DNA from: Acidobacteriota bacterium
GTDB taxonomy: Bacteria; Acidobacteriota; Terriglobia; Terriglobales; Acidobacteriaceae
Direction of reading: 5' to 3'
NCBI GenBank assembly: GCA_013289765.1
Contig: JABCZI010000001.1
Coordinates: 248,001 to 312,000 of the forward strand
DNA length: 64,000 nt
Shown here: positions 1,659-42,700 of the stretch, in pieces
How the letters are laid out: each line of letters begins with the position of its first letter
How positions within the stretch are numbered: position 1 is the stretch's first letter
The notes under the pieces: generated by a model
Told to the model about the DNA's origin: nothing
Databases searched by the model: none
The model's input: only the letters and a program-made list of their open reading frames with translations
Program-made: the position numbers and the translations under genes

Positions 1659-2309
1659 ATGGCTCACGAACTACCAGCCCTTCCCTACGACTACGCAGCG
1701 CTTGAACCCGTCATCGACAAGCAGACGATGACCCTGCACCACGACATGCACCACGGTGCCTACGTTAAGAATCTCAACGGGGCCATCGAAAAGCATCCCG
1801 AGCTGTCCAAGAAAAGTCCGGAAGATTTACTTCGCAACCTCAATTCGATTCCCGAAGACATTCGCGCCACAGTCCGCAACAACGGAGGCGGCCACGTCAA
1901 TCACTCCATGTTCTGGAAGATCATGAAGCCCAAAGGCGGAGGCGACCCCAACGGCCCCATCGCGCAAGTCATCAGCAAAACTTTCGGCAACTTCAAAGAC
2001 TTTCAAACTAAATTCAACGACGCCGGCGTAAAACAATTCGGCTCCGGATGGGTCTGGCTCGCCGGTAAGCAAGGCGGCGAAGTCCAAATCATCTCGACGC
2101 CCAATCAGGACAATCCAATTTCGCAAGGCCTCTTCCCCATCTTCGGCAACGACGTCTGGGAGCACGCCTACTACCTCAAATACAATAACCGCCGTCCGGA
2201 ATATCTAGCCGCCTGGTGGAACGTAATCAACTGGGACGAAATCAACGCTCGCTTTGAAGCATTCAAATCAGGCAAGTCCGTAGAAGAGGCAGCACTAGCC
2301 CATCGCTAG
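1659..2309 (+). CDS. sodA: Superoxide dismutase (Mn/Fe family)
   Basis: A 216-residue protein of the iron/manganese superoxide dismutase family, which converts superoxide to oxygen and hydrogen peroxide. Expected metal ligands are visible: His27 in the LHHDMHH stretch, the His of NHSMFW, and the Asp and His of NDVWEHAYY. The [11 protein letters not shown] and NQD signatures are those of the Mn-type subgroup, but metal preference cannot be fixed from sequence. There is no signal peptide, so it is cytosolic. The ATG is preceded by GGAGGA at a good distance, and a TACAAT hexamer at 1635-1640 could be a -10 box. A strong bidirectional terminator follows. Confidence 0.96.
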
Positions 2310-2316
2310 AAGCCGC

Positions 2317-2342
2317 GTGTGGGTCGGACACTCCTGTCCGAC
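2317..2342 (+). repeat. Covarying hairpin repeat (family A), copy 1
   Basis: Conserved GTGTGG head, then arm GTCGGACA, loop CTCC and perfect complementary arm TGTCCGAC. It starts 8 nt after the sodA stop, on the same strand. Other copies are at 16994-17019, 22577-22602 and 24149-24174. Confidence 0.85.
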
Positions 2343-16252: not shown

Positions 16253-16966
16253 ATGAAACTAGCCCTCGTTCTTTTCGCGCTCTGCCTATTCACCACTGCG
16301 TCCCTCGCGCAAGACCATCCCGCCGTCACGGCACTTCCAAATTCCATTTACGTCGGCGCCGACGGCAAATTTGAAGCCGCGCCCGATACCGCCGTCATCC
16401 AGTTCAACATCTCGGTGCAAGAAAATACTTCTCAAGCGGCTTACGATCATGCCGCCAAAGAGGCCGAGCAGGTTCGCCAAGTCCTGCGTGCCAATGGCAT
16501 CGAACCCAAAGCGGCCAATATCGGATTCCTCTCTGTTCAGCCAGTGTATGAGTGGAAGCCCAAGCAAAAAGTCATCGGATACCGCGTCACCACCGATGTC
16601 AGCCTCAAGTTGAAAGATTTCTCCAAGATCGGACCCATCACGCAACAACTCGCCGACGCCAACGTGAGCGAGACGCAAACTCTTAACTACATTTTGGAAA
16701 ATATGGACGAGGCCAAGAACAAAGCCGTGGAAGACGCCTACCGCCGTGCCCGCAATTCCGCCGATGCCATTGCACGCGCCAGCGACCGCACGGTCGGAGA
16801 ACTCTCTTACGCTTCCGTCGACACTTTCGAAAACCAGCGGATCATTGCCCCCCGCATGGCCCGCGCCATGTCCGCCATGGCCAACGCCCCCGCGCCCACT
16901 GAAGAATTCACGCCGCAAACCGTGACAGTAACAGCCCACGTGAACGCCTTATTCAATTTGAAATGA
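16253..16966 (+). CDS. Secreted SIMPL-domain (DUF541) protein
   Basis: A 237-residue protein with a signal peptide (MKLALVLFALCLFTTASLA) and a SIMPL/DUF541 domain: YVGADGKFEAAPDTAVIQF, a helix with QVLRANGIEP, the SVQPVYEW turn and a C-terminal QTVTVTAHVNALF strand. The family forms periplasmic or outer-membrane-associated oligomers and its biochemical role is unsettled; some members are linked to oxidative stress or membrane protein handling. The ATG at 16253 is chosen because it begins the signal peptide; an upstream TTG at 16223 would bury it. A family A hairpin follows the stop at a distance of 28 nt. Confidence 0.9.
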   Translation: MKLALVLFALCLFTTASLAQDHPAVTALPNSIYVGADGKFEAAPDTAVIQFNISVQENTSQAAYDHAAKEAEQVRQVLRANGIEPKAANIGFLSVQPVYEWKPKQKVIGYRVTTDVSLKLKDFSKIGPITQQLADANVSETQTLNYILENMDEAKNKAVEDAYRRARNSADAIARASDRTVGELSYASVDTFENQRIIAPRMARAMSAMANAPAPTEEFTPQTVTVTAHVNALFNLK

Positions 16967-16993: not shown

Positions 16994-17019
16994 GTGTGGA
17001 GCGGACACTCTTGTCCGCT
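16994..17019 (+). repeat. Covarying hairpin repeat (family A), copy 2
   Basis: GTGTGG head, arm AGCGGACA, loop CTCT, complementary arm TGTCCGCT, pairing perfectly. It lies 28 nt after the stop of the SIMPL gene on the same strand. Confidence 0.85.
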
Positions 17020-17061
17020 GCTTTTGACTTTGTTGTCTTTGTTCTTCCTTGACTTCTGCTT

Positions 17062-20562: not shown

Positions 20563-21792
20563 ATGGAGACTGAACTTCCCCCGCTCGACCTTGAAATTCC
20601 CCTGTTTGATCCCTCGCTCTATCCCCGCACCTACCGCGTCTCGACCGCCTACGGCCTCCTTTTTTTTGTTATCGGCGCGATCACTTTCGTCGCTGGTTGC
20701 CTGGGGGCTTGGTACTTCGGAACCGGCCACGAAATGAACTCTCCGCGGCAGGCAGCTTTCATGGCTGCCGGTTCGTTCTTGTTCGTGCTGCTCGGGATCT
20801 ATCTCATCGCCTTCATCGTGCGATTCAAAGTAGTCCTCAATCCTGACTCCATCGCCGTTCAGGAACTCTTTTCATCGCGTACGCTTCTTCGCTCCGATAT
20901 CGGCGGACGCCGCCTCCTGCCCACTAAATATGTCTCAACCCTCGTACTGGTCCCACGTTCCGAACTTCAGAAGAAGCTCAAAGTCGGGCTCGCCATGCGC
21001 ATTGACTCAGCCTTCAAGCATTGGCTGACCGATATTCCCAACCTCGACGCCGAAGAACTCGCGCAATCGCAGAGCGAACTGTTACGCGACCCAGACCTGG
21101 GTTTCGAATCCGAAGAACGTTCCGCGAGCGTCGTACGTGCCAAAAAACTCTCGACTCCGCTCAATACCTTCGCTACGATTTCATCTTTCCTGGGCTATCT
21201 TTTCCCTCGCCCTCCGATAATCGCCATACTTTGCGCTCTGCCGCTGCTGGCTTTGGCGCTCCTGGTCCGGTTTCGCGGCATTTATGACATTGAAGGTCGC
21301 CGCATCGACGCTCGCCCCAGCCTCGCGCCGCTCTTTCTTTTTCCGGGATTGGTGCTGGCCCTGCGCGCCCTCCTCGATTTCAACCTGCTTCACTGGACGC
21401 CGCTGCTCACCATCTCCCTCGTACTTACCGCCGCCATCATGTTCGTAGTCTCCAATGCGGATCGGAGCGTCGGAAGTCGACCCGCCACTCTGCTCTTGAT
21501 CTCCTTGTTTGCAGCGTGCTACTCCTACGGCCTCGCTGCCCACGGCAACAGTTTCCTTGACCATTCCACCCCGCAAACATTTCCAGTCCCCGTCGTCGGC
21601 AAGCACGTTTCCGATGACAGATCTCCCACGTACTACCTTCATCTCGATCCCTGGGGACCGCAAACCGCCCCCACCGAAGTCTCGGTCCCTTCGTCGCTCT
21701 ACGCCTCGATCTCTCCTGGCCGGCAAGTCTGCGTCTATCTCCATTCTGGCGCGCTTCGAATTCCGTGGTATGTGGTGGCGCAATGCCTTTGA
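20563..21792 (+). CDS. Unknown multi-pass membrane protein
   Basis: About 409 residues with two N-terminal helices (LLFFVIGAITFVAGCLGAW, AAFMAAGSFLFVLLGIYLIAF), a soluble segment with an RFKVVLNPDSIAVQEL start like bacterial PH-like domains, then four or more helices and a C-terminal soluble tail (LHLDPWGPQ, SPGRQVCVYLHSGALRIPWY). I do not recognise the family. Its 3' end overlaps the start of the next serine hydrolase gene by 10 nt, so the two are probably translationally coupled, and it is divergent from the NamZ fusion. The ATG at 20563 is preferred over the first ATG at 20524, because the latter's extension reads like non-coding sequence. Confidence 0.75.
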   Translation: METELPPLDLEIPLFDPSLYPRTYRVSTAYGLLFFVIGAITFVAGCLGAWYFGTGHEMNSPRQAAFMAAGSFLFVLLGIYLIAFIVRFKVVLNPDSIAVQELFSSRTLLRSDIGGRRLLPTKYVSTLVLVPRSELQKKLKVGLAMRIDSAFKHWLTDIPNLDAEELAQSQSELLRDPDLGFESEERSASVVRAKKLSTPLNTFATISSFLGYLFPRPPIIAILCALPLLALALLVRFRGIYDIEGRRIDARPSLAPLFLFPGLVLALRALLDFNLLHWTPLLTISLVLTAAIMFVVSNADRSVGSRPATLLLISLFAACYSYGLAAHGNSFLDHSTPQTFPVPVVGKHVSDDRSPTYYLHLDPWGPQTAPTEVSVPSSLYASISPGRQVCVYLHSGALRIPWYVVAQCL

Positions 21793-23093
21793 TCGCAGCC
21801 TTCGACCATCAGGATAAAATCTTCGCCTCCGCCTTCTCGATCCTCGAATCCGCGATCGCCGCCCACGCCTTCCCCGCTGCCTCCGTCGCAGTTACGCACC
21901 GCGGACGACTCGTCGCACTGAAAGCCTTTGGCCACTTCACCTACGACAACGAAATTACAAACGAACCCACGGTTGCCCCGTCCTTCTCGCGTTCTTCGCG
22001 AGAGGGCGGGGATTCTGATCTCCCGTTCGACAAACGAGAAGAGGGTGCCCCATTTCTCGCGTCCTTTGCGAGAAGTGGGCAATCTACTGTCCATCCCTCC
22101 ACCCTCTTCGATCTAGCCTCCTTAACCAAAGTCGTCGCCACCACCCCAATGGCGATGATCCTCTATGACCGTGGCCTGCTCGACCTCGACGCCCTCGTCG
22201 CCGCGATCATTCCAGAATTCACGACGGATGCCGAAAAAGATCCTCGCCGCCGCAACGTAACCCTTCGCCAACTCCTAATCCACTCCTCCGGTCTGCCCGC
22301 GTACGAAAAATTATTCCTGAAAGCCCGCACGCGCGACGAACTCTTGCACGCGGCATTCAATATTCCGCTCAGAGCCGACCCCGCCACCCGGAACGAATAC
22401 AGCGACATCGGATTCATCATCCTCGGCGTCGCTCTCGAACGCCTCGCCGACGAACCTCTCGACCGCTTCTGCCGGCGAGAGATCTTCGCCCCACTCGCGA
22501 TGACAAACACCACCTTCAATCCTCCCATAGACCTTCGCTCTCAAATCCCTCCCACCGCCGATGAACGAGACGAATTGTGTGGGGCAGACACTCTTGTCCG
22601 CCAACCGCCTGAAGCACAATCACCGCCAAGCGTAAACCACCAAACCCGCAGCACCTTTCGCGAAAAAATAATCCAAGGCGAAGTCCAGGACGAAAACGCC
22701 TACATCCTCGGCGGAGTATCCCCTCACGCCGGACTTTTCTCTACAGCGGAAGACCTCGCAAAATACGCCCACGCTCTTTTGTCCGGCGGGTCTCCGATTC
22801 TCCGCCCCGAAACCATCGCACTCTTCACCACCCGCGAATCCACGCCCTCCGGCACCTCCCGCGCCCTTGGCTGGGATACCCCGTCCGTCCCATCGCAATC
22901 CGGAAAATATTTCTCCCCGCAATCCTACGGTCACCTCGGCTACACCGGCACCTCTCTGTGGATCGACCCCACTCGCCAGCTCTCCATCACTCTGCTCACC
23001 AACCGCACCTGGCCCGACTGCTCAAATCACGCTATAAAAACAATCCGCCCCAAATTTTACGACGCTGTAATCGAAGGACTAGATGCGATCTAA
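21783..23093 (+). CDS. Serine hydrolase of the beta-lactamase/AmiE family with repeat-derived insertions
   Basis: A 436-residue protein with the class C beta-lactamase fold: nucleophile Ser113 and Lys116 in DLASLTK, tyrosine motif in EYSDIGF, and GHLGYTGTSLWID near the C-terminus. There is no obvious signal peptide, so it may be cytosolic. In Bacillus subtilis a related enzyme (AmiE) removes peptides from muropeptides; the neighbours NamZ fusion and murQ support that reading over penicillinase. Two stretches look foreign: residues about 59-102, from a double palindromic repeat, and residues about 265-275, from a family A hairpin. The start ATG lies inside the end of the upstream gene. Confidence 0.9.
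   Translation: MPLIAAFDHQDKIFASAFSILESAIAAHAFPAASVAVTHRGRLVALKAFGHFTYDNEITNEPTVAPSFSRSSREGGDSDLPFDKREEGAPFLASFARSGQSTVHPSTLFDLASLTKVVATTPMAMILYDRGLLDLDALVAAIIPEFTTDAEKDPRRRNVTLRQLLIHSSGLPAYEKLFLKARTRDELLHAAFNIPLRADPATRNEYSDIGFIILGVALERLADEPLDRFCRREIFAPLAMTNTTFNPPIDLRSQIPPTADERDELCGADTLVRQPPEAQSPPSVNHQTRSTFREKIIQGEVQDENAYILGGVSPHAGLFSTAEDLAKYAHALLSGGSPILRPETIALFTTRESTPSGTSRALGWDTPSVPSQSGKYFSPQSYGHLGYTGTSLWIDPTRQLSITLLTNRTWPDCSNHAIKTIRPKFYDAVIEGLDAI
21975..22084 (+). repeat. Double palindromic repeat (family E) inserted in frame
   Basis: First hairpin CCCCGTCCTTCTCGCG / TTCTT / CGCGAGAGGGCGGGG (about 21976-22011), second TGCCCC ... TTCTCGC / GTCCTTT / GCGAGAA ... GGGCA (about 22045-22083). Both are variants of one unit. 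They interrupt the coding region of the serine hydrolase without breaking the frame. Confidence 0.8.
22577..22602 (+). repeat. Covarying hairpin repeat (family A), copy 3, inside a gene
   Basis: GTGTGG head, arm GGCAGACA, loop CTCT, arm TGTCCGCC with one mismatch. It lies inside the serine hydrolase gene in frame, encoding part of DELCGADTLVRQ. Confidence 0.75.
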
Positions 23094-24148: not shown

Positions 24149-24174
24149 GTGTGGCGCGGGCACTCCTGCCCGCG
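24149..24174 (+). repeat. Covarying hairpin repeat (family A), copy 4
   Basis: GTGTGG head, arm CGCGGGCA, loop CTCC, complementary arm TGCCCGCG. It starts 5 nt after the murQ stop on the same strand. Arms differ from copies 1 and 2 but still pair perfectly. Confidence 0.85.
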
Positions 24175-24212: not shown

Positions 24213-24276
24213 TGGGAAGGCCACGACTTTAGTCGTGCCGTAAAGCATCAAAACAATCCGGGCTTCTGCCCCTGAG
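24213..24276 (+). repeat. Two-hairpin repeat (family D), copy 3
   Basis: Left hairpin CACGAC / TTTA / GTCGTG at 24222-24237, right hairpin GGGC / TTCT / GCCC at 24260-24271 followed by CTGAGG. It ends just before the predicted vapBC promoter. Confidence 0.75.
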
Positions 24277-39736: not shown

Positions 39737-42700
39737 TCACCGATCATCGATGCGCCGGTCTTCGACGCGTCCCTCCTGGAAGCCTGGGTCCCACGGCGTT
39801 CCCCGCGCAGCGGAAACACCTCCGCGCCACGGGCTTCTCGTGGGTGCGGAAGTGTTCCCGCCGATGCCGGATGGAAATATCTCCATTTGACCTTGCAGCG
39901 TGGCGGTGGCTCCAGCCGCAACCTGAATCTCGACCTCGAGTGGGCCAGTAAAAGATCCAATCGAAGGAACGAAAGTGGCCAAGCCGTTGACGTCGCTTTG
40001 CACGGAGCTTTGACTCTCACTCAAGATGGCCGGGATCGCGGAGGGATCGCCCGCAGTCTGCGTTAAGCCGTTTTCCAGCGGACGCATCACTGTGGATTGA
40101 AACAACACAATCTCCCCCAGGACACCATTCGGCGGGGTAGAAAAATCGGTCACGCGCACCGTCATTGGCTGGAACGAAAGTCCCGCGACGAACTGTTCCT
40201 CGCCTCCCACGGCCTGCAGATTTACCATGTTAGCCGCGACTGGGTTCCCGGCGATCGTTTGGCACGGATTGTTTCCCGGCGCCACGCAAGCGCTGACTTG
40301 CACAGCGGAGTTGAAGTTCGTCAGGGCAAGAGTGACCGAGGCGTACCCAGCGCTATTCGTCACCGCGCTTGCGGCACTCAGAGTTCCTATCCCCTGCATA
40401 ATCGCAAAGTTCACGGTCGATCCACTTTTCGGTAAACCGAGAGTTACGACTCGCGCGGTGAGCGGCACGCTCAGAGACGCGCCGGAGGCAACCCAGAGAT
40501 ATGGTGTAGTAACTCCGATGTCCAAAGAGGAAGACGTCGCTGTGACTACCGTACTCACCGATTTAGGCGGATTATAGGCAGAGGGTGCGAGCGCTGCGGT
40601 AACTACTGCATTTCCGGTTGCGGCGGGCGTCACCCAAGTGGTAGCCATGCCGCTTTCATCGCTGATCGCCGAGCATGCGGAAGCTCCTCCGCAAGCGGAA
40701 AGTATCGCGCCGTTGGTGGTTGTCCATCCCACAGTTGCGCCATTTACTGGAGTAACGCCGTCCGAAGCGAGCACTCGCACCATCACCGGATTGGTCGCCT
40801 GCGTTCCTACCGGAGCAGCAGGATGCACTCCGGGCAATAGGACGATCTGATCGGAGGCAGCGGCTCCGAACGTGACCGCATTCGTCATGGTGGAGAACGC
40901 GCCGCTAACCGGGTCGGTGATGGTGATCGTCTGCGTTCCATCAATCTGACCCGAAGCCGCCGCAATCATCTGACCGGCGCTAGTCGAAAGCAAGGGCGCG
41001 CCGCTACTGCCAATGGTCACGGTGAGCCCGGGCGCAAAGCCAATGCCCTTCAAAGTTATCGCACTGCCATTGACCGGGACGCGCGCCGGGCTCACCGAGT
41101 CTCCGTAGAGCACGTGCGCATGGTAGTGGTAGTCGGGACGCCCGTCCCCGCGCAAATCCGAGATTCCGATGATGAAGCCGTTCGCAATCAAGACTTGCGC
41201 ATCCAGACGGCTCATGCCGAAAGTCCCCGAGTTGAATGCAGTCGGAGTAAGAGCGGGAGGCAGAGTTCCGAGGGGATCGCCAAGGGTCCACATGCCAACC
41301 ACTGGAGCGGCTTTGGATTCGCTCGGCACACCCTTTTCGTCCAGCGCCGTGACGGCAACTGACAAAGTTCGGTTTGCCTGGGCTGCTACTAAGAAGTAAT
41401 CAACATCGCCGTAGCCGCTCAAGGAACCAATCCAATCTCCGGGAGCAGGAACCGTCGCCGGCGCACTCCAGGTTTCCGACGCAGCCCACGAAGGCACAGC
41501 CTGAGCGCTCCCCGTCATGAGAATGTCCTTGTCGAAATCGCCGCCGGCGCCCACAGTCACCACCATCGATGGAGAAACTCCTGACGGTGCAACCTGGAAC
41601 ACTTCATAGGGGCACACTCCCGCTGACCACAGAGGATCCAGCGCTTCCACACTGAGTTGGTATTGCGCCGTGCTTCCGCCATTCGGAATCGGCAGTCCAC
41701 CCAGATCGAAGAAGCCTTCCACGGTTTGATCGGATGATCCGAATTCACTGTAGAGATTACCTAGAGGATCGGTCCACCCCGTAATGGGATTACCCGCATT
41801 GCCGGTGAATAGAAATCCAGAGACTGACGAGACTGTATACCGGTGCGACGCCAGCCCTGAGGAAGGATCAATCCACCGCGCGAAAACATTCACGCCCTGC
41901 ATGGGTTGAGCAGGGGCGCCCACATGGTCCACGAAATAAACTCTGCCGTGGATCCGAGCGCTGGCATTTGAGCTGGCAGGATACAGGCGGGACAGCGCGG
42001 CCACATCATCCGAAGCCAGCAAATAGGGATTTGCATAACAGGTCGTGATCGGCACACAGCTAGACAAATCCGTCTCGTGCATAACCGGGAAACCCGTACG
42101 GTCGTCGGAGGTCGGTGGCGGCTTACCCGTAATCACGTTGATATTTACCTGCGACCAACCCAGGCCGAGCACGTTGCCGAGCACTCGCACCAGCCGGTAC
42201 TCAACATCTGTAAGTTGCGACGATTGCAGGGCACACTGTCCGTTGATGACCACCAGCGCATGCCGGAAATTTGCCCCCGTTCCGAAGCTGTCAGCGCCCC
42301 CGTAAACTGCGTTCCAAAAGCATTGTGAGGGATCTCCGGCCCCCGTTCCCAGCAAGGCATCCGTAACTGTTCCGTCGTAGTCGTAAACAATGCCAATTGG
42401 GGTCTGAACGGCTGAAGAAGTAATGTCGGCCGGAGCATTGACCGTACCGTTTGAATCAACGCCGATATTGCCGCCGTTAACGTCTTCGGCGAATTGGCCA
42501 GCATTGATAGCCGTCAGTGACGCTGTGGATACCGAAGTCCATTGGCTGAAGGCGTTGGCAACAAATGCATTTGCAGAAGCGTTCGGCAGAATTGGACTGA
42601 GATCCCCCTGATCGGTGTAGTAGTTCACCTGACCCAGTGGCCACGTGATGGGCTGACCCATGGTCGTGAAATAACTGGAGCCTGCTACATATTTCGGTCC

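Follow-up and report, generated by a model that had tools for sequence, protein, structure and literature searches.

The closest described systems are the REP/RAYT (TnpAREP) pairs known as REPtrons, in which, according to the accessible portions of PMC6006769, PMC3733652 and PMC8266576, a GT[AG]G foot immediately precedes a short hairpin on its 5' side, intergenic copies are numerous near gene 3' ends, copies flank the RAYT gene, and each RAYT lineage has its own hairpin class. The acidobacterial hairpin family described here is alike in all these respects; it differs in having an extended GTGTGG head, a CTCY loop, and a T-rich, hexamer-like tail, it was matched within one Terriglobia genus only, and it is known here from sequence. 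Furthermore, it shares with REPINs and BIMEs the occurrence of head-out inverted pairs (among the matches listed, 30 of 134 unique copies have a partner at most 230 nt downstream), whereas about half of its copies in co-directional gaps (50 of the 104 listed) are solitary. The TIRYTs of Acidobacteria belong to the same transposase superfamily and come from the same phylum, but TIRYT genes are flanked by terminal inverted repeats unrelated to GTAG REPs (PMC3733652), and here the flanking elements are GTGG-footed hairpins. The ends of IS200/IS605 elements are comparable in the HUH/Y1 enzyme and in the same-orientation hairpins on both sides of the gene; in the present case, the enzyme belongs to a RAYT lineage, and the repeats occur as dozens of free copies per genome. 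Lastly, Rho-independent terminators also show a GC-rich hairpin after the stop codon, sometimes with a T-rich tail, while the hairpins under study have a conserved head and loop sequence, a mostly weak T run, and a transposase of their own.

In the portions of the literature at hand, acidobacterial transposases with inverted-repeat flanks are listed and REPs near gene 3' ends and within ORFs are already reported (PMC3733652), the coevolution of TnpAREP and REP and strand-specific binding are treated (PMC8266576), and the acidobacterial members that come up have inverted repeats or atypical structures (PMC3733652, PMC6006769). The search for REP/RAYT in Acidobacteria returned only the latter two papers as relevant, and the GTGTGG family was not found in those portions of them; the search for palindromes in Sulfotelmatobacter retrieved no literature.

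According to our data, the hairpins are very probably a Terriglobia REP family dispersed by a cognate RAYT/TnpAREP, that is, a single-strand HUH transposase. The foot, the stem, the loop, the copy number, and the RAYT link fit the published REP rules (PMC6006769, in the portions cited above), and therefore the elements are assigned to a new family of REPs that has a cognate RAYT and occurs in a group of soil Acidobacteria. They represent a known element type rather than a new RNA signal. An earlier note on this DNA had mentioned a mobile REP-like element as an alternative, which turned out to be the best identification, since the elements stand on both sides of a RAYT gene and the hairpin class tracks the RAYT lineage.

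The window, i.e., the whole stretch of 64 kb that was analysed, harbors four copies of a unit composed of GTGTGG, an 8-bp stem, and a CTCC/CTCT loop, all on the + strand; three of them are intergenic and the fourth is inside a PF00144 gene. The features are the following (the genes were called with a purpose-made dicodon caller, a non-standard program whose training set consisted of 29 long window ORFs):

1659..2309, + strand: sodA (Fe/Mn superoxide dismutase, PF02777/PF00081), 7 nt from its stop to copy 1
2317..2342, + strand: REP copy 1; head GTGTGG 2317-2322, arms GTCGGACA/TGTCCGAC at 2323-2330 / 2335-2342, loop CTCC 2331-2334; covariance model score 54.6 bits
2382..2412: terminator-like hairpin of the ordinary type, on both strands, 40 nt 3' of copy 1
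16253..16966, + strand: SIMPL-domain gene (PF04402), its stop 27 nt 5' of copy 2
16994..17019, + strand: REP copy 2; arms AGCGGACA/TGTCCGCT; 66.6 bits; followed by the family tail GCTTTTGACTTTG...
21783..23093, + strand: PF00144 (beta-lactamase fold) gene, carrying the copy 3 insert
22577..22602, + strand: REP copy 3; stem degenerate (one mismatch); 24.7 bits; within an in-frame insert of 28 codons
23233..24144, + strand: SIS-domain gene, 5' of copy 4
24149..24174, + strand: REP copy 4, of the CGCGGGCA subfamily; arms CGCGGGCA/TGCCCGCG; 47.8 bits; 4 nt past the stop of the SIS-domain gene

The tail of copy 1 is degenerate and T-rich and reaches to about 2370. The SIS-domain gene is presumably MurQ-like, a name that we take over from the earlier note. 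That note had described four copies with a shared head and loop, and the coordinates and arms it gave for the three intergenic ones are correct; the copy that it had left unplaced is the one at 22577-22602 (+). As for the spacing after the stops, it was right in setting these three copies near stop codons and on the coding strand, but its values of 8, 28, and 5 nt are offsets, the intervening bases being 7, 27, and 4. When up to three mismatches were allowed, the pattern matched the window five times versus 0.08 expected by chance. The fifth match (40324-40346, − strand) was dropped, as it had no covariance-model match at E ≤ 1. The Rfam scan of the window retrieved only tRNA at the gathering score and no family match for the hairpin copies; in the stretches L001, L002, L003, and L036, the sole Rfam hit was weak and away from the hairpin copies.

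The same window also contains other repeats. Additional palindromic repeats, e.g., CCCATTTCTCGC...GCGAGAAGTGGG, occupy positions 21977-22079 of the PF00144 gene, and this segment matches 31 further places in the genome, two of which (C1:239058-239097 and C1:239732-239768) flank another Y1 transposase gene (C1:239304-239600), while a third (C5:252734-252770) adjoins the Y1 genes at C5:251674-253022. Since copies flank or adjoin those genes, these repeats may belong to the C1 and C5 Y1 transposases. Moreover, the hairpin repeat CACGACTTTAGTCGTGCC at 24222-24239 gave, with at most one mismatch, 30 matches over both strands, corresponding to 15 palindromic sites in the genome.

The identity of the elements as repeats is shown by the search on the host genome (4.8 Mb, 18 contigs), which holds 31 exact matches to the strict pattern (16 forward, 15 reverse) versus none to the reversed pattern used as a control. 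From 30 of these 31 copies, a covariance model (R1) was built, which retrieved at least 55 matches at E ≤ 1 and at least 44 at E ≤ 0.001 among the best 150 of 2458 candidates scored. Among the 51 model matches that were placed relative to the called genes, 49 are intergenic and two lie within genes, so that the copies are dispersed and mostly intergenic, as REPs are. The stem consists of 8 bp and the loop of 4 nt, inside the REP ranges of a perfect stem of 7-20 bp and a loop of 2-5 nt, although both are partly fixed by the pattern. Likewise, GTGG stands directly at the foot of the hairpin, as expected for a GT[AG]G located 0-2 nt 5' of it, although it is fixed by the pattern in the aligned copies; support for the foot that does not depend on the pattern comes from the hairpins beside the RAYT genes, which were listed irrespective of the foot and most of which carry GT[AG]G. 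The sequence upstream of the head shows just a weak preference, namely for G at −4 (0.54-0.57) and for C at −1 (0.50-0.55).

The earlier note had also claimed that the arms differ and still pair through compensatory changes, and the stem does covary, both in the 30 host copies and in the 145 pattern matches listed from the 116 stretches of named genomes. In the alignment of the 30 copies, 99.2% of the stem cells are paired, and the covariation score is 0.330 versus a shuffled mean of 0.100, with none of 500 shuffles as high; both-side changes occur in three of the eight stem pairs, a count that was also reached by 112 of the 500 shuffles. In the 145 matches, 416 of 435 outer-pair cells are Watson-Crick versus a shuffled mean of 274 and a maximum of 301. 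Since the head, the loop, and most inner bases of the stem are given by the search pattern, variation is possible only at the outer three pairs and at pair 6. The matches listed fall into few outer-stem classes (CGC 45, GGC 30, GTC 23, GAC 16, AGC 11, others rare), and thus much of the arm variation is between subfamilies; that it marks subfamilies with their own transposases follows from the RAYT tree discussed below, on which the seven hairpin classes need so few changes. The tail GCCTTTGACYTTGA... follows the stem in many copies, and the CGCGGGCA hairpins beside RAYT genes carry a different, AACTCTAACCACGA-like tail; these subfamily-specific tails suggest that the tail is part of the unit. 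It was also observed that the tails, e.g., at 17020-17050 of the window, are often imperfect hexamer repeats (TTTGAC CTTGAT TTTGCT ...) whose length varies by copy.

The genome of the window (G000) has six Y1_Tnp loci at E ≤ 0.001, only one of which is a close RAYT:

C8:211549-212034, − strand: RAYT gene, 162 aa

Three copies flank this gene, one upstream, one downstream in the same orientation, and one inverted further downstream; the flanks of the five other Y1 loci gave no R1 match at E ≤ 1. The protein passes the NCBIfam model NF047646 REP_Tyr_transpos (88.6 bits, cut-off 80) and narrowly misses Pfam Y1_Tnp (PF01797; 22.2 bits versus a cut-off of 23). Its sole sequence match in the PDB at E ≤ 0.001 is E. 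coli TnpArep (4er8), and in the alignment the HUH motif, the catalytic Tyr, and the foot-contact residues correspond, with HVH on HMH, WQ on WQ, DH..R on EH..R, and Y...NP on Y...NP; the roles of the aligned TnpAREP residues are those given in the accessible portion of PMC6006769. Homologues of this RAYT were found at E ≤ 1e-10 in 36 of the 61 genomes searched, and R1 matches at E ≤ 1e-4 stand beside 10 of the 30 homologue loci that were fetched (an eleventh, L227, has a weak match, 0.0039). At the level of sequence, these data show the link between repeat and transposase; by analogy with the studied systems, the RAYT at C8:211549-212034 would also carry out the cleavage and the transposition.

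Other RAYT lineages are flanked by different hairpins with GTGG- or GTAG-like feet, namely GACGGACA, CGCGGGCA, CGCGGGCG, GACCGGGTC, GGACAGCC, and CCCCGGAC, so that the published REP rule of a flanking tnpAREP/RAYT gene holds class by class. On a tree of 35 rows, the 18 labelled RAYTs with their seven hairpin classes require six changes, the minimum possible; the labels were set by hand, L224 (an R1 match, with no perfect footed hairpin) and L234 (another family) were left out of them, the classes GTCGGACA and GACGGACA differ little, and several forks of the tree have a support below 95. In these sequences, hairpin class follows RAYT lineage, which shows their co-inheritance.

Within the window's genus, 33 of the 37 genomes gave R1 matches at E ≤ 0.001, compared with none of the 24 genomes from outside it (with stricter filters). 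The scan of named genomes gave at least 116 stretches with matches, which represent a sample, and every listed title is an acidobacterial assembly. Three high-copy genomes, G034, G031, and G028 (32, 33, and 23 model matches, respectively), have no close RAYT, which speaks against the dispersal by a cognate RAYT: at E ≤ 1e-10, none was found in G028 and G034 and only distant ones in G031. In these genomes the transposase may have been lost, or it may be missing from the assembly.

The comparison of orthologous sites shows that the elements are absent from many of them. The script used for the sites behind the genes needs perfect 7-bp stems and misses imperfect hairpins (sodA L248, SIMPL L307, murQ L276 and L278); it left out five SIMPL loci lacking the gene as well as two SIMPL loci and one murQ locus cut by contig ends. 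Of the 23 rows that could be assessed behind the SIMPL gene, 20 lack a perfect REP-like hairpin within 70 nt, two have a sense one (one being that of the window), and one has an antisense one. By eye, no hairpin was recognized in L306, L313, L314, and L319, and imperfect REP-like hairpins were seen in L307 (sense) and in L324, L327, and L331 (antisense); since the script misses imperfect hairpins, the count of 20 of 23 overstates how empty the SIMPL site is. Behind sodA, the coding strand carries REP families that differ by species, the script scoring 12 of 30 rows as sense and none as antisense; four of these 12 (L250, L251, L252, and L259) are doubtful, as they contain another repeat whose GTAG is possibly incidental. 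More in general, the repeat families at the site after the sodA stop (L245-L274) vary by species, and those four rows carry TGTCATCCTGAGCGTAGTGGCC... Behind the SIS-domain gene, the script, which sees perfect stems only, found a hairpin in three of 29 rows, and two near relatives, the genomes G018 (L276) and G026 (L278), have a similar imperfect hairpin in the same place with another loop. Lastly, copy 3 lies in an insert of 28 codons placed in frame between IPPTADER and TFR of the PF00144 protein, which is absent in 12 of 22 aligned relatives (three of 25 with ORFs shorter than 300 aa were left out); the remaining relatives carry inserts, several of which are related in sequence. In this loop (window 22577-22602 and L276, L278, L285, L288, L291, and L294), in-frame REP-derived peptides vary by species (GADTLVR, GADTPVR, GAGAPAR, GAGTPAR), as if the hairpin family had been exchanged in place.

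The copies are biased in position. Among the 143 listed copies of the named genomes, 71 turn their head to a gene 3' end, and in 44 of them at most 15 nt separate the head from the stop (the median being 9 nt, and 12 copies standing exactly 3 nt away), versus two of the 63 that turn their tail to a 3' end; 14 of the 143 fall within called genes, seven per orientation. Copies with less than two thirds of the outer pairs were dropped from these counts, and loci shorter than 2500 bases were dropped both here and from the counts given below on other footed hairpins, on the strand, and on exact and degenerate copies. After nine of the 143 copies with similar upstream flanks had been merged, leaving 134, the matches listed were compared with uniform placement (copies lacking a called gene on both sides do not enter the expected counts): within 15 nt, we found 36 of 58 copies versus 7.7 expected for head to 3' end, 2 of 52 versus 7.1 for tail to 3' end, and 0 of 45 versus 3.5 for tail to 5' start. 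Head to 5' start is also somewhat above expectation, with 7 of 39 versus 3.0. The deficit on the tail side may come in part from the tail itself or from a partner copy occupying the site. Moreover, the trend is shared by other GT[AG]G-footed hairpins of the same stretches, with 12 of 37 head-to-3'-end cases within 15 nt versus 3 of 32 tail-to-3'-end cases; these hairpins number 249 in 1.21 Mb versus two in the reversed sequence, a count in which some places are doubled (L183 and L184 overlap the window) and the stretches had been chosen for their R1 copies.

Regarding the strand, the window genome has, in co-directional gaps, 18 copies on the strand of the genes and four on the other one (counted by hand). 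Among the matches listed, the solitary copies show the same preference (38 on the coding strand versus 12 on the opposite one, p = 0.0003), whereas the 54 of 104 that have another match within 250 nt show no strand bias (26 versus 28). The bias to positions near stops, with the head facing the stop, is hence supported at both the genome and the genus level, but the coding-strand claim of the earlier note is too strong beyond the window.

Such strict spacing to the stop codon goes beyond what mobility alone explains. If exact copies are taken as young and degenerate ones as old, the two are similarly near stops: 49 of 94 and 18 of 42 of the matches listed, respectively, lie within 15 nt (Fisher p = 0.36, with a test of limited power). 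For this reason, insertion targeting seems the likelier source of the near-stop bias, and slow selection the less likely one.

In principle, we can depict other scenarios. The first one, which we consider possible but not the more probable course, is a secondary host role, in which hairpins within about 15 nt of the stop would reduce the translation of the upstream gene, by analogy with E. coli, where REPs less than 16 nt from the stop downregulate translation (work cited in PMC12306157, in its accessible portion). Besides this precedent, the 36 of 58 copies within the critical distance are in line with it, but exact and degenerate copies are biased alike, and therefore there is no sign of selective retention.

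The second scenario, somewhat less probable than the first, is a safe-harbour effect, where the bias would come only from the purging of insertions elsewhere, in genes and promoters. It agrees with the few copies within called genes and with the finding that in 0 of 49 cases the tail comes to within 15 nt of a start codon downstream; however, it predicts neither the clustering within 15 nt in long gaps, nor the coding-strand orientation of 38 of 50 solitary copies, nor the equal bias of exact copies.

In the third scenario, the hairpins would serve above all as RNA devices, terminating transcription or protecting the 3' ends of mRNAs, and would be kept behind stops by selection; the earlier note had found a role in termination or in the stability of mRNA 3' ends to be fitting. 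The strong coding-strand bias to within 15 nt of stops speaks for it, and so do the many T-rich tails and the sodA copy, which scores weakly terminator-like in a lax scan. The four copies of the window fold at −13.6 to −17.2 kcal/mol, and copies 1 and 2 are clearly below the shuffles, with z-scores of −2.40 and −2.67 (4/200 and 3/200 shuffles folding as low); the copies at 22577 and 24149 are not, with z-scores of −0.97 and −1.10 (35/200 and 26/200, respectively). On the other hand, the canonical bidirectional terminator at 2382-2412 comes after the sodA copy, 9 of 35 near-stop copies show at least six T among the 12 nt that follow the stem, copies also stand within genes in both orientations, the full bias is already present in exact copies, and the transposase linkage is left unexplained. 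A further canonical terminator follows none of the 35 near-stop copies versus 20 of the 378 gene ends taken as controls (9 when the first 35 nt are skipped), numbers so small that they speak neither for nor against a replacement of terminators by the copies. Single copies may act as terminators, but termination or mRNA protection as the primary role is very unlikely.

Coming back to a REP family dispersed by its RAYT, the unit comprises the 5' GTGG foot inside GTGTGG, the 8-bp stem, the CTCY loop, and a subfamily-specific tail. As in the studied REPs, the transposase would act on a single DNA strand, where it would recognize the foot together with the folded hairpin, cut, and paste the unit elsewhere. 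Insertions are located mostly between genes, very often just 3' of a stop codon and with the head toward it, and this position bias would result from insertion targeting; any effect on the mRNA of a hairpin placed 2-15 nt past the stop would then be a side effect or a later co-option. A more speculative proposal, to which we assign a rather low probability, is a coupling between RAYT insertion and the end of transcription, in which the single-stranded REP would be pasted into the non-template strand exposed just behind the stop, where RNA polymerase slows or leaves.

Overall, the analysis adds to the Acidobacteria a lineage-restricted REP/RAYT system with several cognate pairs, and the pairs of hairpin class and transposase lineage represent a ready set for testing hairpin recognition. 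The similar near-stop bias of exact and degenerate copies, in turn, makes the placement of REPs behind stops testable in terms of targeting versus selection. If the coupling to the end of transcription were true, it would determine the spacing of 2-15 nt and the coding-strand orientation alike, in several REP families simultaneously, and sites such as the 3' end of sodA would be recurrent landing sites, taken by different REP families in each species.
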